Positions 9,464 through 22,992 of a DNA stretch of 64,000 bases are shown here, piece after piece. The position numbers were made by a program, and so were the translations under genes. Source of the DNA: an uncultured Desulfobulbaceae bacterium (GTDB lineage: Bacteria > Desulfobacterota > Desulfobulbia > Desulfobulbales > Desulfocapsaceae). Within the stretch, counting starts at the first letter, position 1, and each line of letters opens with the position of its first letter. The stretch spans positions 16,805 to 80,804 of the forward strand of contig CAISPV010000006.1 in NCBI GenBank assembly GCA_903887485.1. Reading direction: 5' to 3'. The notes beneath the pieces were generated by a model. It searched no databases. It was not told the origin of the DNA and saw nothing but the letters and a program-made list of their open reading frames with translations.

Positions 9464-9832
9464 TCAGACGGTGCTGGCTTCTTTTATCTTGCTGACCAGT
9501 TCGCCGATATCCACGGGCTTCATGAGATAATCAAACAGGCCGCGCCGCATGCCGATAATGCCGCTTTCCGTGGATCCATGTCCGGTCAGGATAATCACCT
9601 GGATGCGCGGGTCATGTTTTTTGATCAGGTCAAGGGTAGTGAGCCCGTCAATTCCCGGCATCATCAAGTCAAGCAGGACCACCTGAGGCCGCCAGTCAGA
9701 GGTGAGCACGGTCAGCGCCTCTTCGGCGCCGCTCACCGCCTTGGCTGCAAAACCCCGCAACTCCAGGCGTTCCGCCAAGGTGGAGCCGAATTCCGTTTCG
9801 TCGTCTACGATCAGGATTTTAATTGTGTCCAT
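9464..9832 (-). CDS. Single-domain response regulator
   Basis: MDTIKILIVDDETEF..VVLLDLMMPGIDG..VIILTGHGS..DYLMKPVD; canonical receiver residues. Confidence 0.93.
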   Translation of the reverse strand: MDTIKILIVDDETEFGSTLAERLELRGFAAKAVSGAEEALTVLTSDWRPQVVLLDLMMPGIDGLTTLDLIKKHDPRIQVIILTGHGSTESGIIGMRRGLFDYLMKPVDIGELVSKIKEASTV

Positions 9833-11606
9833 TGCCGTCGCTCCTTTCACTGTAAACCGGAAAAGTGATGATGAATGTGGTGCCGATACCAATCTCGCTG
9901 TTCACCTCGATCTTGCCGCCAAGCTTTTGGACAATACCATAGGTAATGGATAATCCCAAGCCGGTGCCTTTCTTCTCCTCATTTCCTTTGGTGGTAAAAA
10001 AAGGCTCGAAGATATTTTTCATGGTCTCTGTCGACATGCCCGGCCCGGTATCTGAAATGGCGATCATGACGGTTTTGTTGTCATCGCAACTTGAGGTGAT
10101 ATGGATCTCCCCCTCATTGTTGATGGCCTCCATGGCGTTGTTGGTTGTAACCATGGCATTGCTGATGGCGTCGATGGCATTGTTGATCACGTTGAGCAAT
10201 ACCTGTTGCAACTGGCCGTGATCGGCCCGGATGACCGGTAATTCCTTCTGAAGTTGCAAGAGGATATGGATGTTATGATAGGCGGCCTCTTTTTCAAGGA
10301 AGCTGATGACTTCCCTGATGATGTCGTTGAGATGGACCAGGGTCAGTGAGGTCTCCATGCGTCGGGCAAAGCCCAGTAAGCGGTGGGTGATGGTTCTGGC
10401 TCGCCCCACCGCATTTTGCAGGGAATCTAATTGATCAATAAACTTTTCCCGGTAGCGAAAATCACGATCCATTTCAAGCAGATCCTGCATCAATCCCGCT
10501 TTTTCCCCGATAATGGCCAGCGGGTTATTGATTTCATGGGCCACACCTGCCGCCAGACGGCCAATGGAGGCAAGCTTGTCGGTGTGCTCCGTTTCGCTGA
10601 GCATCGCCTCCCGCATCTCGTCGGCCTCCCTGAGCTTTCCGGCGATGAAGGCAGAGAGCCAGATAATGATGCAGCCCAACACCAGGGAACAACTGATCAG
10701 GGTAAGCATCAATCCTCTCTTGAAAGAATGCCAGTCCCCCCTTTTCGCATATCCTTGATGATCCAGGACAAGAAACCAGGGTGTGTGCGGGATGCGGCTG
10801 ACCGCTCGGTAAAAACTGCCGTTACTTCCTTCTCCAGAGATGAGGATGTCGTTCTGCTTTGGCTTGTTGCCCAGCTTGAAATCCTCAAGCACGGTGCCGT
10901 GATAACGGGAAGAGCTTTGCAGCTTGTTGCTGTCATTGACCAGGAAGATGTCCTCCAGGGCCCCGGTGTTGACCGAAGCAAGAAAGTGATCCAGGGTTTC
11001 ACTGTCAATACTTGCCCGGAGAACCCAGGAATCCTGCGAGGATGCCGACCCTTTTTTGCTGGCCGCGACAACAAAATGGGGAAAATTGCGGAATCCGGTA
11101 AAAACTTCACTGACGTATATCTTCCTGGTCAGGGCCTTATGAAACCAGATGCTGTCATTGTAATTCTTGCCGACCAGTTTGTAGGGGCCGGCATAGGTTA
11201 TCTGGATGCCGTCCGAGCCAATGACGCCGATATCAACCAAGCCCTGATGTTCCTCCTTGAGCCGTCTGAAGATCTGGTCAAGTTGTTGTTGGTCGGTTAA
11301 ATCCTCAAAGGTGTACGAGTCGAGCACGACCGTGATCGCCGCCTCCATCTTTTCAAGGTAGGCGTTGATGGTGGCCCTGGCGCTTTCCGCGCTCCAGCGG
11401 GCATTGGCGTAGGATTCGTTCTGCAGGAGCTGTCGGTATTGGACAAAATTGATTCCCGAGATGATGGCCATGGGGATCAGGGTGATGGCCAGCATGGCGA
11501 TGAGCATGCTGTTGCGCATGCAACGGTACCGCTCTCTGGTGGAAAGGTTTTTATTGTGGAGTCCACAAAATAGCGGGCATAAGGAGCCAAAAGAGTTGTC
11601 TTTCAT
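9819..11606 (-). CDS. Membrane sensor histidine kinase (Cache-like periplasmic domain, HisKA, HATPase)
   Basis: 'GRLAAGVAHEINNPLAIIGEKAGLM', 'NVINNAIDAI', 'DTGPGMS', 'GTGLGLSITYGIVQKLGG'. Confidence 0.94.
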   Translation of the reverse strand: MKDNSFGSLCPLFCGLHNKNLSTRERYRCMRNSMLIAMLAITLIPMAIISGINFVQYRQLLQNESYANARWSAESARATINAYLEKMEAAITVVLDSYTFEDLTDQQQLDQIFRRLKEEHQGLVDIGVIGSDGIQITYAGPYKLVGKNYNDSIWFHKALTRKIYVSEVFTGFRNFPHFVVAASKKGSASSQDSWVLRASIDSETLDHFLASVNTGALEDIFLVNDSNKLQSSSRYHGTVLEDFKLGNKPKQNDILISGEGSNGSFYRAVSRIPHTPWFLVLDHQGYAKRGDWHSFKRGLMLTLISCSLVLGCIIIWLSAFIAGKLREADEMREAMLSETEHTDKLASIGRLAAGVAHEINNPLAIIGEKAGLMQDLLEMDRDFRYREKFIDQLDSLQNAVGRARTITHRLLGFARRMETSLTLVHLNDIIREVISFLEKEAAYHNIHILLQLQKELPVIRADHGQLQQVLLNVINNAIDAISNAMVTTNNAMEAINNEGEIHITSSCDDNKTVMIAISDTGPGMSTETMKNIFEPFFTTKGNEEKKGTGLGLSITYGIVQKLGGKIEVNSEIGIGTTFIITFPVYSERSDGNGHN

Positions 11607-11956
11607 GGTGTGGTACTCCGATCGGGCCTTGTCCGGAGAATGGCCCCTGATTGTAGTTTTTTGACCATGGCCAAGGCAAGGGCTTCTTCGGCTGGCCCGA
11701 TTATCCGGTCGATCACTTCAATCTTTTTCCAGATCAGATATTGGAAATGGGCGTCCTCAATACCGCCGCAGATTACCAGGGCTACTTCTTCCTTGATTGC
11801 CAGGCTGCACAGCTCGTCGCTGGACGGTCCCGGCAGCAGGATGGTTCGAGGCGCGCCTGAGATCTTTCCCCTGGTGATTCTGGCGATCAGCACCTCGGTG
11901 GTCAGGTCAAAGCGGGGGGCGATATCATTGTTCTGCAGGGTGATAAGGATCTTCAT
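11603..11956 (-). CDS. NifX/NifB-C-like dinitrogenase iron-molybdenum cofactor-type domain protein
   Basis: 117 aa; 'MKILITLQNNDIAPRFDLTTEVLIARI..ALVICGGIEDAHFQYLIWKKIEVIDRIIGPAEEAL'. Confidence 0.75.
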   Translation of the reverse strand: MKILITLQNNDIAPRFDLTTEVLIARITRGKISGAPRTILLPGPSSDELCSLAIKEEVALVICGGIEDAHFQYLIWKKIEVIDRIIGPAEEALALAMVKKLQSGAILRTRPDRSTTP

Positions 11957-11963
11957 AGGAGGG

Positions 11964-13376
11964 TCAGGCCAGGCTGTATTCTTTCATCTTCCGCCACAGG
12001 GTGGTGCGTCCCCAGGCAAGCACTTTTGCCGCCTCACTTCGGTTGCCGCCGCTTTGCATAAGGGCGCCAAGGATGTTTTGTTTCTCGATGTCACTCCAGT
12101 TGGCGGCGTTGTCCGGGACTCCTTTATGGCTGTTGGCTGCTGGGTGCTGTGTGTTCGGGGCGGCGTCAGTTTGCCTGTCTATCGGGAGGGAAGGTTCGGT
12201 GCCGGGTCTTGAGAGAGGAGGACTTAACGGTTCATCCAGCACATAGGGCGGCAGGTGATCGAGCTCAATAACCTCACCTCTGCAGATATTGACGCCATAT
12301 TCGATGATGTTGCGTAATTCCCGGACATTGCCGGGGTAGCGGTATTTGGTTAATCGTTGCAGGGCCTGGGGGGAGATCTTTTGGATATTTTTATTAAAAT
12401 TTGCGGCAAACATCTGCAGAAAATGATCGATCAACAGTCGCACGTCTCCGTCTCGTTCCCTGAGCGGCGGCAGGTGTACCCGCAGGACGTTTAAACGAAA
12501 AAAAAGATCCTCTCGAAATCCTCCTTCTCCAACCAACTTTCTCAGATCACGATGGGTGCCGGTGATCAGCCGCACATCAACCTTGACCTTTTTCTGGCTG
12601 CCCAGCGGAAAAAACTCCCGATCATCAAGCACGGTAAGAAGTTTTACCTGGAGCGGCAAGGGGAGGTCGCCGATCTCAGTGAGAAAGATCGTGCCACCCT
12701 GGGCAAGTTGAAACATGCCGTGCTTGTCGGCATGGGCCCCGGTGAAGGCCCCCCGGACATGACCAAACAACTCTGATTCGAGCAGGCTCTCCGGCAGGGC
12801 GCCACAGTTCACCTTGATAAAAGGATATTTGCCTCGTTTGGAGGCGTGATGGATGGCCTCGGCCAGGATGTCCTTGCCGGTGCCGGTCTCGCCGGTGATC
12901 AATACGGAGGAATCGGTGTGGGCCAGGATTGGCAGGAGCTCAAAGACTTCCTGCATCTTGGGGCTATGTCCCAGGAGGCCCTTGGACGGGCCGATCTCTT
13001 TTTTCCCTGCACGGGTTTCCTGAATGGCGGTGATATCTTCCAGGGCGAGGACCATTGCTGCTTGCCCCGTTCTCGGAGACAAGATCGGGGTTGCGGTAAA
13101 GCGCACCGGGATTTTTTTGCGATTGAGGCCAAGGATGTCGCCCTCAGTGTTGCAGGCCATTCCTGTTTCTCCAGCCTGCCGGAGAAAGTGACTGTTTTGC
13201 TGGAAGTGAGTGCGAAGGATGAAATCATAATAGATGCCGCGAGCTTCTTCGCCGGAATAGCCGGTAAGGGCCTCGAGGAAGCGGTTCATTTCGATGATCT
13301 GGAAGTCCTGGTCGAGCAGGGCGATACCGTGTGGCACGCCATTCAGGATTTCCAGGAGCTCGGGGTATTGGTTCAT
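11964..13376 (-). CDS. PAS-containing sigma-54-dependent transcriptional activator with Fis-type C-terminal HTH
   Basis: 'GETGTGKDILAEAIHHAS', 'ELFGHVRGAFTGA', 'RYPGNVRELRNIIEYGV', C-terminal 'NRSEAAKVLAWGRTTLWRKMKEY'; ATG at 13376 (MNQYPELLEIL) preferred over 13487. Confidence 0.94.
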   Translation of the reverse strand: MNQYPELLEILNGVPHGIALLDQDFQIIEMNRFLEALTGYSGEEARGIYYDFILRTHFQQNSHFLRQAGETGMACNTEGDILGLNRKKIPVRFTATPILSPRTGQAAMVLALEDITAIQETRAGKKEIGPSKGLLGHSPKMQEVFELLPILAHTDSSVLITGETGTGKDILAEAIHHASKRGKYPFIKVNCGALPESLLESELFGHVRGAFTGAHADKHGMFQLAQGGTIFLTEIGDLPLPLQVKLLTVLDDREFFPLGSQKKVKVDVRLITGTHRDLRKLVGEGGFREDLFFRLNVLRVHLPPLRERDGDVRLLIDHFLQMFAANFNKNIQKISPQALQRLTKYRYPGNVRELRNIIEYGVNICRGEVIELDHLPPYVLDEPLSPPLSRPGTEPSLPIDRQTDAAPNTQHPAANSHKGVPDNAANWSDIEKQNILGALMQSGGNRSEAAKVLAWGRTTLWRKMKEYSLA

Positions 13377-13748
13377 GGCTTCACCTGTTCCGGTTGGAGC
13401 CGGGACGGTTGTATGGATCTTGGCGGCAATGTCTGGTCTGTGGTCTGTTTCGTGTTTCGTATTGTTTCTATCTGTTCCGTGTATCATGCTCTGTCTTGAG
13501 AAGTCAATTGTTTTTTTAGGTGGAGCTCTGAATGGGTAGATTCGTGGGGGTGGGATTGTTGCGGGGGTATATGAGTTTGCTGTCCCTGTCGCAAGTGTTG
13601 GGTAGTGGGTGGTGGAGATGGGGCGCTTTGTTTCTGGTTGTTTCAGCGGAGGTGCTGTGTGTTCTCTTTTGTTTCAAAATGTTTTGCTGTGTGATTCCGG
13701 CTCAGAGTTTTATTTTGGTAACATGCTGTATTTATATGAAATGTGTTT

Positions 13749-13764
13749 TTGGCACGATCCTTGT
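13749..13764 (+). promoter_or_regulatory. Sigma-54 (-24/-12) promoter
   Basis: TTGGCACGATCCTTGT closely matches TTGGCACG-N4-TTGC; 73 nt upstream of the ATG at 13837 and next to a divergent sigma-54 activator. Confidence 0.8.
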
Positions 13765-13836
13765 ATTAGAAACAACAAACAGCACAACAGATCTGCTGGG
13801 GTGCAACAGGTTATCAGGAAAACTGCGGAGGTTGCC

Positions 13837-14136
13837 ATGAAAAAATCACTTAACACTTTTCAGAAATGGATGACAGCGATCACCTTTGCCGAGGCCGGGG
13901 AGTGGGATATGGCCAAACAGATGTCCCCTGTCACTGTCCCGAGCAGAGAGATCAGTCAGCTTGAGCAAACCTTTATGGCTGCCGCCTTTGCCGAGGCAGG
14001 ACTTTACGAAGATGCTGTCAGGATGGCTGAGGGTCTTAGTTATCAGGCCCCGGCAACTGATGATTTTCTCCAGTCGCTTGGTCTGGGAGGGGTTCGCGTG
14101 ACGTATGGTGTGTTTGCTGTTGGTTCGGTGCGATAA
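13837..14136 (+). CDS. Small protein with two FAEAG-type helical motifs, unknown function
   Basis: 99 aa MKKSLNTFQKWMTAITFAEAGEWDMAKQM..FMAAAFAEAGLYEDAVRMAEG; GGAGG upstream; start placed downstream of the sigma-54 promoter. Confidence 0.8.
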   Translation: MKKSLNTFQKWMTAITFAEAGEWDMAKQMSPVTVPSREISQLEQTFMAAAFAEAGLYEDAVRMAEGLSYQAPATDDFLQSLGLGGVRVTYGVFAVGSVR

Positions 14137-14174
14137 GCGCAGCGTCCGGTAACTCTTCAAAAGGGACGGGAGAA

Positions 14175-14699
14175 ATGGCCATCACGGCAACGGCGCTCAT
14201 TGTCTCCGACGATACGGACTTTGCCCAAACAATGAAAGTCCTCCTTCAGCGCTGGGGCATGGTTGTGGAATTGGCAGCAGAAGCTGTGTATTTGCCCGCC
14301 GGCGGGGTGGATGTGGTTCTGCTTGATATCCGGAGGCAGGACAACAATGGGCTTGCTCTCCTGGCAACCATTCGTACCCGGATGGCTGACGCCGAGATCA
14401 TTCTCGTGAACAGGCCGGACAATATCCAGTTGTCCATGGCCGGGATGCAGGCTGGGGCAGATGATGAGATCATCTCTCCTTTTGATACTGCCACCCTGAA
14501 AAATAAAATCTCTTCCGCTCTTCAATGCCGGAAAAAACGGCGTGGGAAGAGGTCGTTGCTGAAAAGATTTGAAGATGCCATGACCGCTATCACGTTTGCC
14601 CAGGCCGGAGAATTTGATACTGCCGTTGACTTGTTGAATGAGTCGGAGGAGAAGTCTTCCTCCCGTAAAGATCGAAAACAAACAGAGGCAGCACCTTGA
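14175..14699 (+). CDS. Degenerate receiver-like domain protein with C-terminal FAQAGE motif
   Basis: 'ALIVSDDTDFAQTM..VVLLDIRRQDNNGLALL..EIISPFD'; C-terminal 'AMTAITFAQAGEFDTAVDLLNESE'. Confidence 0.82.
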   Translation: MAITATALIVSDDTDFAQTMKVLLQRWGMVVELAAEAVYLPAGGVDVVLLDIRRQDNNGLALLATIRTRMADAEIILVNRPDNIQLSMAGMQAGADDEIISPFDTATLKNKISSALQCRKKRRGKRSLLKRFEDAMTAITFAQAGEFDTAVDLLNESEEKSSSRKDRKQTEAAP

Positions 14700-14743
14700 G
14701 TTGACTGTCTTTAAACCGATGCTGAGGGATTAGGGGGGGAAAC

Positions 14744-15196
14744 ATGGATGATATCAAAATTCTGCTGGTAGATGATGAGGAAGACTTTATCAAGACATTG
14801 TCGGAGCGTCTCGATCTGCGGGACCTTGGCAGCGAAACGGCGCTCAGCGGCGAACAGGCATTGGGGTATGTTGGTGATAATGAGCCCGATGTCATGGTCC
14901 TTGATCTGAAGATGCCGGGCATTGACGGGATGGAGGTGCTCCGTCGGGTCAGAAAAACCTATCCCCATATCCAGGTTATCATCCAGACCGGGCACGGCAA
15001 CGATCTTGATGAAGCAGAGGCCAGGCGGCTTGGAGTCTTTGATTATCTCAAGAAGCCGATTGAGATCGAGGTCCTGGTAGAAAGGATCAAGGCCGCCTAT
15101 CAGGCAAAAAACAACTTGCTGGATAACTCGGCGGGTGCAGTCGCCTTTGCCGAGGCAGGCGAATACGAAACTGCCCAAAATTTATTGGGGAAATAA
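14744..15196 (+). CDS. Response regulator with C-terminal FAEAGE motif
   Basis: 'ILLVDDEEDFIKTL..VMVLDLKMPGIDGMEVL..VIIQTGHGN..DYLKKPIE'; C-terminal 'GAVAFAEAGEYETAQNLLGK'. Confidence 0.92.
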   Translation: MDDIKILLVDDEEDFIKTLSERLDLRDLGSETALSGEQALGYVGDNEPDVMVLDLKMPGIDGMEVLRRVRKTYPHIQVIIQTGHGNDLDEAEARRLGVFDYLKKPIEIEVLVERIKAAYQAKNNLLDNSAGAVAFAEAGEYETAQNLLGK

Positions 15197-15330: not shown

Positions 15331-15630
15331 ATGCAGAAACAGGCAGTGGTCATGAACAGCCACTTTATTGTCAGTGGTGAACGGATGGAAATCCGCCCGC
15401 TGGTGGGTTCCGGTTTGGGTGAAGGCTATCCGCAGGAGGGCCGGTTTCCGACCCTGTTGGAGCTTGAACAGGAGTATGTGCAAAAGGTCCTGGCCCATGT
15501 TGCCGGCAACAAGTCACGGGCGGCCGAGGTGCTGGGTATAGACCGGGTTTCCCTGTGGCGAAAGCTGAAGAGGCTTGATGGTATTACGGCTGCCGGCCCC
15601 CGGTTCGGGAAATGTTCTGAACAATCATGA
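15331..15630 (+). CDS. Small Fis-type helix-turn-helix protein
   Basis: 99 aa; 'LLELEQEYVQKVLAHVAGNKSRAAEVLGIDRVSLWRKLKRL'. Confidence 0.85.
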   Translation: MQKQAVVMNSHFIVSGERMEIRPLVGSGLGEGYPQEGRFPTLLELEQEYVQKVLAHVAGNKSRAAEVLGIDRVSLWRKLKRLDGITAAGPRFGKCSEQS

Positions 15631-17315
15631 AGATGTATGTTGCCACCATTCCCGGCAGCGCCCTGAAGGTTCGTTCGCGTGAGTCCTATTATGCACGGCA
15701 GAAACGGATTTTTGTGGTGGTCGTTATCCTGGTGGCCATTGTTCCTCTGCTGTTCATCAGTTGGACGGTTTCCCGTTTTTATCAGGAATCATGGCTGGAC
15801 AAGACCACAGTGGAGCTGACCAGCCTCGCCAATAACCGTCGGGAGATCATCGATCTCTTCCTCAACAGTCAGGAAAATACCCTGGCCGGATATGCGGAAC
15901 TGTACGATTTTTCCTGGCTAAGCGACCCCTCCAATCTGGAGAAGCTGTTCAAGGCCATGAATCACCAGGGGGTTATTGTCGATCTGGGCCTTATTGCCAG
16001 GGATGGCAGTCACCAGAGTTATACCGGCCCCTTTGCCGAACACCTGAAGGACAAGAATTATGCGGAGACGCGCTGGTTTGCCGAAGTCATGCACAGTGGG
16101 CGGTACGTAAGTGATGTGTTCACCGGCTTTCGCGGGGTGCCGCATTTCATTGTGGCCGTGACCGATCCCACCCGTTCCTGGATCCTGCGGGCGACCATTA
16201 ATTCCGAGTTGTTTAATGCCCTGTTGGCCAGCACCGTGGTGGGGCCGGGTGGCGATGCCTTTATCATCAATCGTCAGGGTGAGATGCAAACCCCAAGCCG
16301 CCTGGGGCTGGCATCGTTGCCTGCCGGGGAGAAAGCGCTCCTGCTCTCCAATGACCGCCTGACCATTCATAATACCCCAGGGTTTCTCTATGCCACCACC
16401 GGGATGAAAAATAACGACTGGATTCTGGTGCTGAAGACCGATATCGAGACCTCGCTGGCGGATTTTTACCGGGCCAGACAGCGTGACCAGATGATCATTG
16501 GCGGCGCGGGCCTGCTCATCATTGCGGTTGCTATTTTGCTGGTGTTTTCGATGATGAACAAGGTTGAAGGTGCCGACCACCAGCGCGTGCTGTTGTATGA
16601 CCGAATCCGATACTCGGAAAAAATGGCCTTGATCGGCAGGATGGCGGCCAGTGTTGCCCATGAGATCAATAACCCCCTGCAGATCATTGGTGATCAGGCC
16701 GGCTGGCTTGATGAACTGTTGAGCGAGGAAGAACCGTCGCTCCTGAAAAATAGGGATGAATATCAACCCGCAATTCTCAAAATCAGGGCCCAGGTCAAAC
16801 GGGCCAGCACGATCACCCACAGGCTGCTGGGGTTTTCCCGCAGCACCGATGGCGTGAAGTCGGCAACTGATATCAATGTCCTGGTGGAGGAGACGGTTTC
16901 GTTTCTGGAAAAAGAGGCGCAGAATCATCGGATTACCATTCGGCGCCGCCTGAATTTCACTCTGCCGCTCATCACTACCGACGGCACCCAACTGCAGCAG
17001 GTCTTTCTCAATATTCTCAATAATGGTGTTGATGCCATTGGTGCTGACGGTGAAATTACCATCAGCACCAGTGCGGCCGGAAAGCAGATCATTATTGAAT
17101 TTGCCGACAATGGACCGGGACTTTCGGCAGATGCCTTGAACAAGGTCTTTGAACCGTTCTTTACCACCAAAAAAATGGGGTGTGGCACCGGAATTGGCCT
17201 GGCCATTTCCTATAATATCATGGAGCGCCTTGGTGGCGGCATTGAGGCACTAAACGGCTTGCAGGGTGGTTGCGTGTTTCGGGTCACCTTGCCGGCTCCA
17301 CTTGGCAACGCATAA
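15627..17315 (+). CDS. Membrane sensor histidine kinase (Cache-like, HisKA, HATPase)
   Basis: 'IGRMAASVAHEINNPLQIIGDQAGWLDELL', 'NILNNGVDAIG', 'GTGIGLAISYNIMERLGG'. Confidence 0.94.
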   Translation: MKMYVATIPGSALKVRSRESYYARQKRIFVVVVILVAIVPLLFISWTVSRFYQESWLDKTTVELTSLANNRREIIDLFLNSQENTLAGYAELYDFSWLSDPSNLEKLFKAMNHQGVIVDLGLIARDGSHQSYTGPFAEHLKDKNYAETRWFAEVMHSGRYVSDVFTGFRGVPHFIVAVTDPTRSWILRATINSELFNALLASTVVGPGGDAFIINRQGEMQTPSRLGLASLPAGEKALLLSNDRLTIHNTPGFLYATTGMKNNDWILVLKTDIETSLADFYRARQRDQMIIGGAGLLIIAVAILLVFSMMNKVEGADHQRVLLYDRIRYSEKMALIGRMAASVAHEINNPLQIIGDQAGWLDELLSEEEPSLLKNRDEYQPAILKIRAQVKRASTITHRLLGFSRSTDGVKSATDINVLVEETVSFLEKEAQNHRITIRRRLNFTLPLITTDGTQLQQVFLNILNNGVDAIGADGEITISTSAAGKQIIIEFADNGPGLSADALNKVFEPFFTTKKMGCGTGIGLAISYNIMERLGGGIEALNGLQGGCVFRVTLPAPLGNA

Positions 17316-17357
17316 AGTACCATTCACCCATAAGGGACAAGGTGCAGAGGAAATAAA

Positions 17358-17729
17358 ATGGCCGATTTTTCAGTGCTGGTGATCGATGATGAACAGGAGT
17401 TCGTCTCTACCCTGGTACGGCGTCTGCGTAAAAGGGGTTGGGAAAGTGAAGGGGTGTTGACCGGTGGCGAAGCCATACTCAAGATTGCGGCCGGTGACTT
17501 TGCGGTGGCGCTTCTGGATATGCGCCTTCCCGATATGGACGGCAGCCAGGTCCTGCGGGAAATAATGAAAATCAACCCGCAAACCCGGATTATTATCCTC
17601 ACTGGTCATGCCTCGGCCAGTGAGGGAGAGGAGGGGATTCGCAACGGGGCCTTTGATTATCTGATCAAGCCGGTGGAATTTGAAACACTCCTGGAGAAAC
17701 TTCAGGCGGCCAGAGAGCGAAGTCCATAA
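17358..17729 (+). CDS. Single-domain response regulator
   Basis: 'VLVIDDEQEFVSTL..VALLDMRLPDMDG..IIILTGHAS..DYLIKPVE'. Confidence 0.93.
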   Translation: MADFSVLVIDDEQEFVSTLVRRLRKRGWESEGVLTGGEAILKIAAGDFAVALLDMRLPDMDGSQVLREIMKINPQTRIIILTGHASASEGEEGIRNGAFDYLIKPVEFETLLEKLQAARERSP

Positions 17730-17840
17730 GGCTATGTGCAGCAGGCCGGGGAAAAATAATCCAGGAACATGACAAGGTGCCTTGCAACCAAGGGGGTGCG
17801 AGGGTTTTTATTATTCAACAAGGTGAAAGGAGTAAAAGGA

Positions 17841-19148
17841 ATGAAATTTTTTAAAGAATTAAACCAGTTCATGCTGATGGGCGCCAGGGCTCATGCCCAG
17901 TGGGAACTTGATTGCTCGAACACCATCCTCCATGATCGCAAACGGCTGGCGATTTTGTGCCTGCTTATTGTCCCCATCCTCGTCGGCGGCGTGGCCTTTG
18001 CCGATGAGGTCGTTGGTCAGTTGCCCGGGATGCTTGGCGGCAAGACGGCCTATGCCCCGGCCTTTTACACCCCGACCATCTTCTTCGCTTCCATCGGAGT
18101 GGGTATCGTTGCCGGCCTGATCACCGGCTGTATTGGCGCAGGTGGCGGTTTTATTATTGCTCCCGCCCTGATGAGCGCCGGGGTGAAAGGTATCCTCGCC
18201 GTCGGCACCGACCTGTTTCATATCTTTGCCAAGGCAATCATGGGCAGCGTACTTCATCGCAAGCTGGGCAATATCTCTGTCGGTCTGGCTATGGTTTTCC
18301 TGATCGGTTCCATCGGCGGCGCCACCCTGGGCGGCTGGGTCAACCGAACCTTGTATGAGATGAACCCGGTGCTGAGCGATGCCTTCATTACCACCATCTA
18401 TGTCCTGATGCTGGGTTTCCTCTGCTCTTACGCGTTGATGGATTTTTTTCGTTCCCGCAAACCCGCTCCGGCGCAGAAGAGTTCTGATGTTGCGGCCGGT
18501 ACTGCCGGAATGACCAATCTGGCGAGAAAGCTTCAGTCTGTCAACCTGCCCCCCATGATCACCTTTGATGAGGGGATTACCCCCGGCGGCCGGAAGATAT
18601 CCTGGCTGTTCCTGGTGATCAGCGGCTTTGTGGTTGGTATGGCAGCAGCCATCATGGGCGTGGGTGGCGGCTTCCTGACCTTCCCAATCTTCGTTTATAC
18701 CCTTGGCGTTTCCTCCGCTACCACTGTCGGTACCGACATTTTTCAGATCATTTTCACCGCCGGATACGCCGGGCTTGGCCAGTATGCCGTTTATGGTTTT
18801 ATTTTCTACACCCTGGCCATGGGCATGCTGCTCGGCTCGCTTGTCGGCATCCAGATCGGTTCCCTGATCACCAAGGTCGTCAGCGGCTCTACCATTTGCG
18901 GACTGTATGCCGTCGCCACCTCGGCCGGTTTTGTCAACCGTGCTTTTGCCCTGCCTTCTAAGCTTGCCAGTATGGATGTTATCTCCATGTCGGCTGCAAC
19001 CGGCAAAATGCTGGAAACGGTGGGCACCTACATTTTCTTTGTGGTGCTTGGTTCCTTTGCCGTCTGGGTCTTCTATATCTTTTTCACCAATATCAGCGTC
19101 CTCAAGGGAGAGGATCACCTTTACGTCGCCAAGGAGGTAAAAGTATGA
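17841..19148 (+). CDS. TauE/SafE family permease (sulfite exporter-like)
   Basis: 'GIVAGLITGCIGAGGGFIIAPALMSAGVKGILAVGTDLFHIFAKAIMG' and second half 'GMAAAIMGVGGGFLTFPIFVYTLGVSSATTVGTDIFQIIF'. Confidence 0.9.
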   Translation: MKFFKELNQFMLMGARAHAQWELDCSNTILHDRKRLAILCLLIVPILVGGVAFADEVVGQLPGMLGGKTAYAPAFYTPTIFFASIGVGIVAGLITGCIGAGGGFIIAPALMSAGVKGILAVGTDLFHIFAKAIMGSVLHRKLGNISVGLAMVFLIGSIGGATLGGWVNRTLYEMNPVLSDAFITTIYVLMLGFLCSYALMDFFRSRKPAPAQKSSDVAAGTAGMTNLARKLQSVNLPPMITFDEGITPGGRKISWLFLVISGFVVGMAAAIMGVGGGFLTFPIFVYTLGVSSATTVGTDIFQIIFTAGYAGLGQYAVYGFIFYTLAMGMLLGSLVGIQIGSLITKVVSGSTICGLYAVATSAGFVNRAFALPSKLASMDVISMSAATGKMLETVGTYIFFVVLGSFAVWVFYIFFTNISVLKGEDHLYVAKEVKV

Positions 19149-19843
19149 TTGCCAATAAAAAAGAGTTCAACGGTGGTCTGGCGCTCCATATTGCTTTTTG
19201 GGTCATTTTTGCCCTGCTGCTCTCACCGCTTTATCCTGGGCAGGGCAAGAAGGTAAATATGCTCGACTATATGGACAGTATGTACAATTCCATATCCAAA
19301 AAGTCGGCCTATTATGTTCCTGCTACCCAGAAAAAGATCGAGGTCTTCAAGGGAAACAACATCTCCCTGAACATTAAAGCTAATGCCAACCTTTCAATGG
19401 AAAGAATGACTTCTTTGATGCAGCATGCCGGCATGAAGGTCGAGGCCGGCGATAAAGAGATCAGGCTCAGCGGGGATCTTGGTGGGATGTTGAGTGCCAT
19501 TCTCGCTGATGCTGACTCCATGTTTGCCAATGACGGCAAGACTGTCAGCGCCAAATACGGGTTCGGCGAAAAACAGGTGATGTATGATTGGTATAATATC
19601 CTGAAGTCCATGGAGAAAAGCCTGGCCAAACAGGAGAAATTCGCCGAGTCAAAAGTGCTCTATCAGGTGCGGACTAAGACCGTTGAGCCATCCTATAATT
19701 ATTACGGGATTGAGGCGCAGAGTATTCAGGACAAGGCGGTATTGGTCATCTTGTCCCTGGTGGGATATGTGATCTATACCATGTGGTTTGGGTTTTCTAT
19801 CCTCTTTATGTTTGAAGGCTGGGGGCTCAAGCTTGAGCATTAA
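19145..19843 (+). CDS. Two-TM protein with a predicted extracytoplasmic domain, unknown function
   Basis: 232 aa; hydrophobic segments near both termini (ALHIAFWVIFALLLSPL; AVLVILSLVGYVIYTMWFGFSILFMF); ATG overlaps the TauE stop region. Confidence 0.8.
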   Translation: MIANKKEFNGGLALHIAFWVIFALLLSPLYPGQGKKVNMLDYMDSMYNSISKKSAYYVPATQKKIEVFKGNNISLNIKANANLSMERMTSLMQHAGMKVEAGDKEIRLSGDLGGMLSAILADADSMFANDGKTVSAKYGFGEKQVMYDWYNILKSMEKSLAKQEKFAESKVLYQVRTKTVEPSYNYYGIEAQSIQDKAVLVILSLVGYVIYTMWFGFSILFMFEGWGLKLEH

Positions 19844-19857
19844 GGGTATATTTATTG

Positions 19858-19904
19858 GCTGCTTGTTCCGGGTGCTATGCTGCCCGGAACAAGCAGCTTT
19901 TTTA
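19858..19904 (+). terminator. Strong rho-independent terminator
   Basis: Perfect 15-bp stem GCTGCTTGTTCCGGG/CCCGGAACAAGCAGC followed by a T run. Confidence 0.93.
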
Positions 19905-20009
19905 TCAGGTTGATTGTTCATTACCCTTGGTGATTTTTTTGATATATTGAAAAAAAACCTCGCCTTTCGTTGAGGATGTATTCAGCCTGACCTGGCAAAC
20001 CCGCCCAGC

Positions 20010-22604
20010 ATGCAAGACCATTCCATGACCTCTCTTTTTGATCGCCTCACCTCTCTGTTCCGGAGCAAACCCAGGCTGAAGCCGGCGGAGTTACAGGCCG
20101 CTTTTCGCAGTCATTACAAAGAATTTCGTTCTCTGCTTACCGCGAATAATAACGCCCTGGAATTAATGGCGGAGATGGAGCAAGTCCTGAGCGCCGGTCA
20201 TTCCTTTGGGATGGCTTTTATTCGGGGTAACTGTACCGCTCTCACTGTGAATATCTATAAGATGATTCAGCATCTGAACAGGCTGGCCGACGGCAGATAT
20301 GCAGAGCTGGACCAACCCTTCAGGGATGTTACCAGGCGGCTTGAGCAGGTTATTGCCAGCCGGCCTGTGATCACGGAGGGGGTGATGATCCTGTCCATGG
20401 CTGAGGTGGATAGCAGCATGGTGGATCAGGTGGGTGAAAAAATGGCCAATCTGGGTGAGGTCAGAAACCGGGTGGGCTTAAGAACCCCGGATGGTTTTGT
20501 GATGACTGCTGCCGCTGGACGGCATTTTACCCAGGCCAATGATCTGCAGGTTGAGATCAATCGCCGTTTAAAGGGCCTTGATCTTGATAATCTGGAGGAG
20601 CTTTACACCGTCAGCGCCGGTATTCAATCTCTGATTGCGAACGCGCCGCTGCCAAAAGAGCTGGAGCAGGAGATCCTGGCCCACCATCAGCAACTTGTTA
20701 TTGACAAGGATCCCGAGCTATTGGTCGCCCTTCGTTCAAGCGCCATTGGTGAGGATCGTAGCAATGTCTCTTTTGCCGGCCAGTACCGGACCCAGCTCAA
20801 TGTCAGCAGCGAATTTGTCGGCCAGGCCTATAAAGAGATCGTGGCCGGAAAGTATAAAAGTCAGGCCATTGTTTACCGGCAGCAGCGGGGCTTTCGGCAT
20901 CAGGACGTACACATGTGTGTCGGCTGTCTGCGCATGGTGGATGCGGCCATAAGCGGAGTTCTTTATTCCCGGGCCCCGGATGATCCGCGCAGCAGGTTTG
21001 TCATGATCCAGGCGGCGCCTGGCCTTGCCGGCAATGTGGTGGATGGCAGCGCTGCAACCGAACAGTTCAGGGTCAGCCGGACAGCGCCTTATGATATCCT
21101 GGGTAGGCAATCTGGGGCGGGGCAGGTAGGAGGCGGGGTTGGTTCATTGTTGACACTGACCGCAGTCCAGGCAGCGGAACTGGCCGAGGTTGGTGTGCGT
21201 CTGGAAGAACATTTCGGCACTCCGCAGGATATTGAGTGGTCAATTGATCAGGCGGGGCTTTTGTATATCTTGCAAAGTCGTCCCCTGGGGCGGCCTGCTG
21301 CTGAGGAATCGTCGTGGCCACGCCAACACGATTCGAAGGAAGATGATCTGCCGCCCCCACTTCTGGCCGGCGGGGTCTGCGCCAGCCGTGGTGTCGGTTG
21401 TGGCCCTGTCTTTACGGTCCGGTCCAGTCTCGATCTGTTGCGATTTCCCAAAGGAGCAGTCCTGGTTGTTGAGACCCCTTATCCAGACTGGGCCAGCTTG
21501 CTGGACCGGGCGTCGGCGGTGATCAGCGAAACCGGCCAGATGGCTGCTCACCTTGCCACCGTGGCCCGTGAATTTGGCATTCCGGCCATTTTCGGGATGA
21601 AGCAGGCCTTGGCGGCCCTAGACAATCACAGCCTGATTACGGTGGATGCCACTGCGGCTAAGGTGTATGAGGGGCGGGTTGAACCCCTGCTGGCCCTGGC
21701 TCCACCGAGACCGAATCTCATGGTTGGTAGTCCGGTTTATAAAATACTGGTGGCGGCCATGGAGTATATTACGCCACTCAATTTGACCGACCCCGCTTCG
21801 CCTTTTTTTAGGCCCGAGTCCTGCCTGACCCTGCATGATCTTACCCGTTATTGTCATGAAAAGGCGGTGGTCGAGATGTTCAAGTTTGGTGAACGCTATG
21901 GCTTTAATGATAAGGCAGCCAAACAACTGGTGGTGGACGCCCCTTCCCAGTGGTGGGTGATTGATCTCGACGATGGTTTTAGCCCGGATTTTGACCCGGC
22001 GAGCCGTTATGTCGATCTCGGCCATATTGTTTCCGTGCCGATGCTGGCCATCTGGCAGGGGATGACTGCCTTTCCCTGGGCTGGTCCGCCGCCTGTCAGT
22101 TTGCGCGGGTTTGGTTCCATTATCTTTCAGTCCACCAGAAACCCCGGTCTTGATCCGGGGGTGCGCTCGGCCATGGCCGCAAAAAACTACTTTCTCATCT
22201 CCAGAAATTTCTGCAACCTGAGTGTCCGGCTTGGCTATCATTTCGCCCTGGTGGAGGCAAATCTGGGGGAGTTTCTCACCGAAAATTATGTCAACTTCCA
22301 GTTCAAGGGGGGAGCGGCCGATGAAAATCGTCGTCTGCTGCGCATTGGGTTGATTGCTGATATCCTGAACGAATTTGGTTTCCGGGTGGAGCAGAAGGCA
22401 GACGCCATGACGGCCAGGATTGAAAAAAAACCTGGTTCTTTCTTGCTGGAACGTCTGAAAATCCTCGGCTATCTGATTATTCACACCCGTCAGATCGACA
22501 TGGTCATGGGGGATGAGGGGATGGTTGCCCAGTATCGACAGAAAATAATGACTGATTTACAAACTTTCTTAGAAAAACCGGAGACGGCGGAGATGGAGGA
22601 ATGA
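20010..22604 (+). CDS. PEP/pyruvate-binding and phosphohistidine domain protein (PpsA-like, atypical C-terminus)
   Basis: 864 aa; 'LLVALRSSAIGEDRSNVSFAGQYRT', 'DIEWSIDQAGLLYILQSRPL', 'ISETGQMAAHLATVAREFGIPAIFGM'. Confidence 0.85.
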   Translation: MQDHSMTSLFDRLTSLFRSKPRLKPAELQAAFRSHYKEFRSLLTANNNALELMAEMEQVLSAGHSFGMAFIRGNCTALTVNIYKMIQHLNRLADGRYAELDQPFRDVTRRLEQVIASRPVITEGVMILSMAEVDSSMVDQVGEKMANLGEVRNRVGLRTPDGFVMTAAAGRHFTQANDLQVEINRRLKGLDLDNLEELYTVSAGIQSLIANAPLPKELEQEILAHHQQLVIDKDPELLVALRSSAIGEDRSNVSFAGQYRTQLNVSSEFVGQAYKEIVAGKYKSQAIVYRQQRGFRHQDVHMCVGCLRMVDAAISGVLYSRAPDDPRSRFVMIQAAPGLAGNVVDGSAATEQFRVSRTAPYDILGRQSGAGQVGGGVGSLLTLTAVQAAELAEVGVRLEEHFGTPQDIEWSIDQAGLLYILQSRPLGRPAAEESSWPRQHDSKEDDLPPPLLAGGVCASRGVGCGPVFTVRSSLDLLRFPKGAVLVVETPYPDWASLLDRASAVISETGQMAAHLATVAREFGIPAIFGMKQALAALDNHSLITVDATAAKVYEGRVEPLLALAPPRPNLMVGSPVYKILVAAMEYITPLNLTDPASPFFRPESCLTLHDLTRYCHEKAVVEMFKFGERYGFNDKAAKQLVVDAPSQWWVIDLDDGFSPDFDPASRYVDLGHIVSVPMLAIWQGMTAFPWAGPPPVSLRGFGSIIFQSTRNPGLDPGVRSAMAAKNYFLISRNFCNLSVRLGYHFALVEANLGEFLTENYVNFQFKGGAADENRRLLRIGLIADILNEFGFRVEQKADAMTARIEKKPGSFLLERLKILGYLIIHTRQIDMVMGDEGMVAQYRQKIMTDLQTFLEKPETAEMEE

Positions 22605-22605
22605 G

Positions 22606-22992
22606 ATGAACATGGGATTAAATATTCTGCTCATTGATGATGAATTCGATTTCGTGGAAACGACCTGCAAGCGGTTGATCCGCCGGGGGTATTCCGCCAG
22701 AACGGCCCTCACCTGTGCTGCAGGGTTGACAATTATCGAGTCAGGTTGGCCCGATATTGTGGTGCTGGATGTCATGCTTCCCGACCGGGATGGTATGGAC
22801 TTTCTGCGGGAGATCAAGGGGAAATGGCCGTCCCTGCCTGTTATTCTGCTGACCGGCCATGCCTCGATGCAGGCGGGCCTGTACGGTCTGGACTGTGGTG
22901 CCAGTGATTATTGTTTGAAGCCCATTGACCTGGAAACCCTGGTAGAAAAGATGGCCATTGCCCATCGGGAGAGTTGTCAGCTGGGGGCCTGA
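22606..22992 (+). CDS. Single-domain response regulator
   Basis: 'ILLIDDEFDFVETTCKRL..VVLDVMLPDRDGMDFL..VILLTGHAS..DYCLKPID'. Confidence 0.93.
   Translation: MNMGLNILLIDDEFDFVETTCKRLIRRGYSARTALTCAAGLTIIESGWPDIVVLDVMLPDRDGMDFLREIKGKWPSLPVILLTGHASMQAGLYGLDCGASDYCLKPIDLETLVEKMAIAHRESCQLGA

Follow-up and report, generated by a model that had tools for sequence, protein, structure and literature searches.

In the window, i.e. the whole 64-kb stretch of DNA that was analysed, three co-directional genes designated P1, P2 and P3 follow each other with gaps of 38 bases (P1-P2) and 44 bases (P2-P3). The coordinates of these genes, of their motif copies and of their neighbours are collected in Table 1. 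P3 displays the signature of a canonical receiver, D10, D11, D54, T82 and K104-P105 being invariant among 26 homologues. In the P2 receiver, no conserved Lys precedes the Pro and the Thr/Ser position is occupied by Asn, so that the canonical signature is lost at both positions. The alignment of P2 homologues revealed the replacement of the Lys by Ser, Ala or Val and, mostly, of the Thr by Asn or Ser; the Asp residue is retained in most homologues and lost in some. No match for P1 was obtained in Pfam and NCBIfam searches, and its homologues gave sub-threshold TPR and EIIA-Lac matches against the same collections, without any ready family.

Table 1. Genes and sequence features of the P1-P2-P3 locus and its surroundings in the window.
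Feature	Position	Strand	Evidence or remark
NifX-like protein, sensor kinase and receiver; conserved cassette companions	9464..11956	-	domain matches; relatives
Divergent sigma-54 activator, PAS-AAA-HTH_8	11964..13487	-	domain matches; kept beside P1 in relatives
Sigma-54 (-24/-12) promoter TGGCACGATCCTTGTA	13750..13765	+	71 bases before P1 start codon
P1, 99 aa, two motif copies and conserved C-terminus	13837..14136	+	2 (sometimes 1 or 3) copies in homologues
Motif copy 1 of P1, FQKWMTAITFAEAGEWDMAKQM	13858..13923	+	profile E = 5e-19
Motif copy 2 of P1, LEQTFMAAAFAEAGLYEDAVRMAEG	13960..14034	+	profile E = 7e-15
P1 C-terminal element LGLxGIRxTYGV	14077..14112	+	alignment of 40 homologues
P2, 174 aa, pseudo-receiver with motif tail	14175..14699	+	Response_reg E = 2e-13; homologue alignment
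P2 motif tail, FEDAMTAITFAQAGEFDTAVDLL	14568..14636	+	profile E = 9e-17
P3, 150 aa, canonical receiver, motif as last ~20 residues	14744..15196	+	Response_reg E = 2e-26; homologue alignment
P3 motif tail	15119..15187	+	profile E = 3e-14
Fis-type HTH protein, sensor kinase and receiver, downstream of P3, same direction	15331..17729	+	domain matches; relatives
TauE/SafE (TSUP) type permease	17769..19148	+	sequence similarity to the permeases found at other motif loci
232-aa protein, PEP-synthase-like protein and receiver after the permease	19145..22992	+	domain matches; relatives

Sigma-54 promoter of the P1-P3 operon

The TGGCACGATCCTTGTA sequence is the only exact TGGCACGNNNNTTGYW match in the window (0.04 expected) and places a -24/-12 element upstream of the first gene, as in a sigma-54-regulated operon. 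In the relatives, the same site was found at a similar distance before P1. A sigma-54 site precedes the first motif gene in 76 of 96 clusters, against 28 of 635 control genes (the non-motif genes of the same loci) and 2 of 96 mononucleotide shuffles, and all three motif loci of the genome possess one. The divergent PAS-AAA-HTH_8 protein is likely the activator of the P1-P3 operon.

The motif shared by P1, P2 and P3

The sequence-only reading of this DNA had reported that three consecutive genes share a short helical motif, and all four copies were recovered at their places: two in P1 (TAITFAEAGEWDMAKQM and AAAFAEAGLYEDAVRMAEG, the second with L instead of E after AG, unlike the others), one at the C-terminal side of P2 (TAITFAQAGEFDTAVDLLN) and one at the C-terminal end of P3 (GAVAFAEAGEYETAQNLLGK). 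The consensus of the ~25-residue motif is FxxxMMA[IVA][TA]FAEAGExETARxxL, which extends the pattern first described by ~9 residues on its N-terminal side (FxxxMMA). A profile search of the 3.19-Mb genome gave 8 matches with E <= 3e-14, the profile being built from these same eight copies. They are confined to three loci, with four copies at the window locus, two on contig C77 and two on contig C30, and the next match, a single repeat protein on contig C91, had an E-value of 0.004. These eight strong matches in three loci, followed by such a gap, indicate that the motif is not due to chance, and its presence in relatives provides an independent confirmation. Among the 94 receiver matches of the genome (93 over the curated cut-off), P2 and P3 are the only ones with the motif.

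Repeat proteins were observed at L196 (943-1446, contig C91 of the same genome) and L049 (9598-9837, minus strand), where 2-4 tandem repeats VEDTMACSAFAEAGEPCPI contain the motif core with two Cys replacing the second helix.

Relation to TPR and PPR repeats

The motif had also been compared with half of a TPR or helical hairpin, and a TPR-type residue pattern was indeed found. Taking as TPR definition a 34-residue repeat with a small residue at position 8, an aromatic one at 11, Ala at 20 and a bulky one at 24, and mapping the motif onto the TPR consensus by hand, the core residues were present in 109 distinct copies as follows: A at 8 in 90%, F at 11 in 98%, A at 20 in 89%, and L, M or I at 24 in the majority. 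A helix-turn-helix organization, G15 and often an aromatic residue or His at 17 complete the likeness to TPR and PPR hairpins. The motif differs from them by polar residues at the W4 position, by no preference for A27 and by an end located before P32; it also has fixed polar residues (E, E, T, R) and serves as a terminal tag in 1-3 copies per protein, mostly 1, rather than as a solenoid or, as a rule, a tandem array of at least three repeats.

The motif remains below every curated cut-off. The best TPR_4 match among the P1 homologues had an E-value of 0.0026, P1 itself gave none, and a microprotein reached a TPR score of 13.9 bits for a cut-off of 27. No model covering the motif was found in Pfam and NCBIfam; a literature search for the string FAEAGE returned no paper, and further searches of the literature supplied no more than background. 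The AF2 model of P1 shows two helix-turn-helix units with a break at the AGE turn (mean pLDDT 76, pTM 0.37). In Foldseek, the best matches of this model were mostly designed TPR and PPR proteins, none of them significant (E ~0.5), and the P1 profile matched a synthetic PPR protein at 1e-7. These matches in sequence and fold are weak and point to TPR/PPR hairpins.

Weak matches to TPR_4 and TPR_6 in, respectively, 9 and 5 of 40 P1 homologues are compatible with a chance or generic TPR match devoid of function. However, a single weak match and no significant one was detected elsewhere in the genome, the hundreds of copies are restricted to a few operon types, and both the sigma-54 promoter and the cassette are conserved. 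The profile searches revealed a strong enrichment in this type of neighbourhood instead of an evenly spread TPR-type match; this enrichment ruled out the generic reading, which we consider extremely improbable.

Distribution and carriers of the motif

With a profile of 50 diverse copies and E-values calculated per genome, the motif was detected in 50 of the 194 genomes of the class and 32 of the 247 genomes of the phylum, some of these genomes being incomplete. Hundreds of proteins in sulfate-cycling bacteria contain it. When GTDB genomes were scanned with the P1 family, at least 66 loci were listed, mostly in Desulfobulbaceae, Desulfobacterales and other Desulfobacterota, with several in Nitrospirota. 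In 90 loci, obtained by two routes and lying partly on the same contigs, the carriers are 93 receivers, 57 multi-motif small proteins, 32 USP-like proteins, 31 microproteins, 6 two-TM proteins and a few others. P1 followed by two receivers, in Desulfobacterota and Nitrospirota, is the commonest chain (P1>RR>RR, 36), then P1 followed by one (P1>RR, 12). On receivers, the motif is always C-terminal (relative position 0.75-0.94, with ORF starts assigned mechanically in the relatives); it is N-terminal to central on USP-like proteins (median relative position 0.29), on the two-TM protein and on the ~55-aa microproteins.

Three types of loci were distinguished. In type A, to which the window belongs, a sigma-54 activator, a NifX-like protein, a kinase and a receiver adjoin P1-P2-P3, followed in many loci by a kinase, a receiver, a TauE-type permease, a 232-aa protein and a PEP-synthase-like protein. 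In type B, a kinase and a sigma-54 response regulator lie by a motif microprotein, a motif-USP, a two-TM protein with or without motif, TauE and a tandem USP; a permease homologue of this type (L010, 8125-9459) gave a Pfam TauE match. Contig C77 belongs to type B, its motif copies being carried by a USP-like protein and by a small two-TM protein immediately upstream of a TauE/SafE permease. In type C, represented by contig C30, a Lon protease with an inserted receiver is divergent from the motif genes, which encode two free proteins of 55-56 aa. The promoter type and the motif are common to the three types. The common denominator of the motif is therefore the operon type, sigma-54-driven and mostly linked to a TauE/SafE permease, and not the receiver domain, since the motif is equally found on USP-like proteins, two-TM proteins and free microproteins.

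Several variants were observed. In many type A loci (L105, 7809-8480, and equivalents), the gene immediately preceding P1 encodes a stand-alone kinase-like protein of ~220 aa without sensor, which is absent in the window. At L115 (12649-15315), a relative of the PEP-synthase-like protein of the window (20010-22604) bears one motif copy of its own, and in the USP proteins L053 (6477-6986) and L070 (6425-6961) the motif interrupts the USP domain midway instead of lying at one end.

Receiver-Lon proteases near the motif genes

The Lon protease of contig C30 (L011, 6294-8309, minus strand) has its receiver inserted before the AAA domain, and the order Response_reg (122-230), AAA (249-384) and Lon_C (469-670) was confirmed. 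The motif could be conceived as a degradation tag or adaptor for receiver-Lon, which would remove the tagged proteins when phosphorylated. Receiver-Lon adjoins motif genes in ~20 loci, usually divergently and often 20-550 bp away, and all 14 class genomes with a close full-length receiver-Lon (at least 55% identity) carry the motif. Full-length relatives, often beside motif genes or TauE/USP operons, occur in ~80 of the 194 class genomes and form two clades. However, the more distant clade is mostly found in motif-free genomes, and ~32 of the 50 motif-positive genomes lack a full-length receiver-Lon. As most motif-positive genomes are devoid of this protease, receiver-Lon was rejected as the general partner of the motif after the genome survey, and a tagging role is improbable.

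Conservation and predicted contacts

In P2, the motif is more conserved than the domain that carries it (mean pairwise identity of 64% for the tail versus 38% for the receiver). The corresponding values in P3 are 72% for the receiver, 35% for the linker and 60% for the tail; in P1, they are 63% and 54% for the motifs and 45% for the C-terminal element versus 15-23% for the linkers. Copies at the same position are 43-52% identical across loci, against 28-39% between positions within one locus, as expected if the modules have fixed, distinct partners. Position-specific signatures were found (for instance FAQAGEF for P2 and AGEW for the first copy of P1), and the polar residues E2, E5 and T8 are conserved in all contexts.

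Helical extensions from receiver alpha-5 occur in many receivers. In the P3 model, helix alpha-5 of the receiver likewise continues straight into the motif, which, along with motif-free orthologues (L186, L187), would agree with a purely structural extension that folds back on its own carrier or dimerises it, the copies never meeting. Against this, the same motif is present on unrelated folds (receiver, USP, two-TM and free 55-aa proteins), motif copies co-occur in the same operon, and the P3 linker is poorly conserved between two conserved parts. Moreover, the P3 model predicts the receiver confidently but not the tail (pLDDT < 50 from residue 131 on, except residue 136), and no confident contact between the tail and its own receiver; the tail may therefore be free for another protein. 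We regard a solely structural role as unlikely.

Fused and separate USP-like and two-TM genes

A motif-independent survey of the 194 genomes was carried out with the two-TM domain as query, fusion being scored by an open-frame length of at least 275 aa (translation of the fused ORFs may also begin at an internal site). In 21 genomes, all of them motif-free, the two-TM domain forms one protein with a USP-like domain; in 53 genomes it is encoded by a separate gene, and 34 of these have the motif. The Fisher P-value of this association (1e-7) overstates independence because the lineages of the fused and split genomes partly differ. In seven fused loci that were read, the USP-like part was confirmed and no motif gene was present nearby. 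Among the 19 genomes with a separate two-TM gene and no motif, 14 loci were read; most have no adjoining co-directional USP partner, and L186 and L187 possess a motif-free USP-like partner. This comparison of sequences suggests that the motif does the job of a covalent fusion elsewhere, although shared ancestry weakens the statistics.

Proposed docking mechanism

Mutual docking of TPR/PPR-like hairpins as detachable modules, with P1 as an adaptor for P2 and P3, is the favoured reading, about as likely as not to be right. A two-component system and the sigma-54 activator would turn on the operon, whose first genes would yield P1, with two or three hairpins, and receivers with one hairpin each. 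P1 would act as a small adaptor whose hairpins stack on the hairpin tails of P2 and P3, and would keep the phosphorylatable (P3) and the non-phosphorylatable (P2) receivers together near the kinases, the TauE/SafE permease being probably close to this assembly and its putative site of action. In other loci, the motif would link a microprotein, a USP-like protein and a two-TM protein beside the permease.

In favour of mutual docking are P1>RR>RR as the commonest chain, the position-specific signatures, a P2 tail more conserved than its receiver, the two-hairpin model of P1 with its TPR/PPR fold matches, the apparently free P3 tail and the fused/split survey. On the other side are the P1 pTM of only 0.37 and the fold-search E-value of ~0.5, both from a single-chain prediction, the 19 motif-free genomes with a separate two-TM gene, and the motif-free USP-like partners of L186 and L187. 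The sequence-only reading had proposed a shared docking element linking the free-standing protein and the two receivers to one partner; docking is the role that fits best, helped by the fused/split comparison, and the motif is not specific to receivers.

All the copies might instead dock on one common external partner, for example a sensor kinase, the sensor-less kinase-like protein or the sigma-54 activator. Kinases and sigma-54 activators lie beside the motif genes of types A and B, the kinase-like gene precedes P1 in many other lineages, and E2, E5 and T8 are conserved everywhere, as a common ligand site would be. This gene is nevertheless absent from the lineage of the window, loci devoid of the motif (L166, L172, L174) still have the type B activator and kinase, and the position-specific signatures suggest different partners for each copy; a single partner is thus rather unlikely. 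Among the alternatives to mutual docking, a single outside partner comes first in probability, ahead of a purely structural extension and then of a Lon tag.

Returning to mutual docking, it is probably through the motif that proteins encoded by certain stress-signalling and sulfur-transporter operons dock on each other. More tentatively, a one-hairpin clip may wire receivers, pseudo-receivers, USP-like and membrane proteins of sulfate-cycling bacteria into sigma-54-induced complexes located at TauE/SafE permeases; position-specific versions would pick the partners and, where the clip is absent, the domains would be fused. Sulfate reducers possess many TSUP permease operons. If the tag is shared, it would reveal which single-domain receivers, USPs and membrane proteins of these operons act together, and would offer a simple handle on wiring that is beyond the reach of kinase-receiver pairing.

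Comparison with known systems

P3 resembles the single-domain response regulators of the CheY/Spo0F type by its full receiver signature without DNA-binding output, and differs from them by its C-terminal motif tail and by its usual pairing with a motif-tailed pseudo-receiver and a small hairpin protein. In Desulfovibrio-like genomes, a kinase-receiver-PEP-synthase-like group is kept without the motif. Nine TSUP/PSE operons under sigma-54 control, with unknown substrates, are reported in the consulted part of an account of D. vulgaris (PMC4641369); they share with the window a sigma-54 promoter, a TauE-type permease and two-component control, and no description of motif proteins was found in that part. 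The Desulfovibrio 'nitrate cluster' DVU0245-DVU0251, for which no motif protein is reported (PMC4001038), resembles positions 15627-22992 of the window by its gene content, i.e. a TauE-type permease, a kinase, a receiver and a PEP/pyruvate-binding protein. This cluster has an effect on nitrate resistance: mutants in its genes DVU0246, 0247, 0250 and 0251 grow in 100 mM nitrate (PMC4001038).
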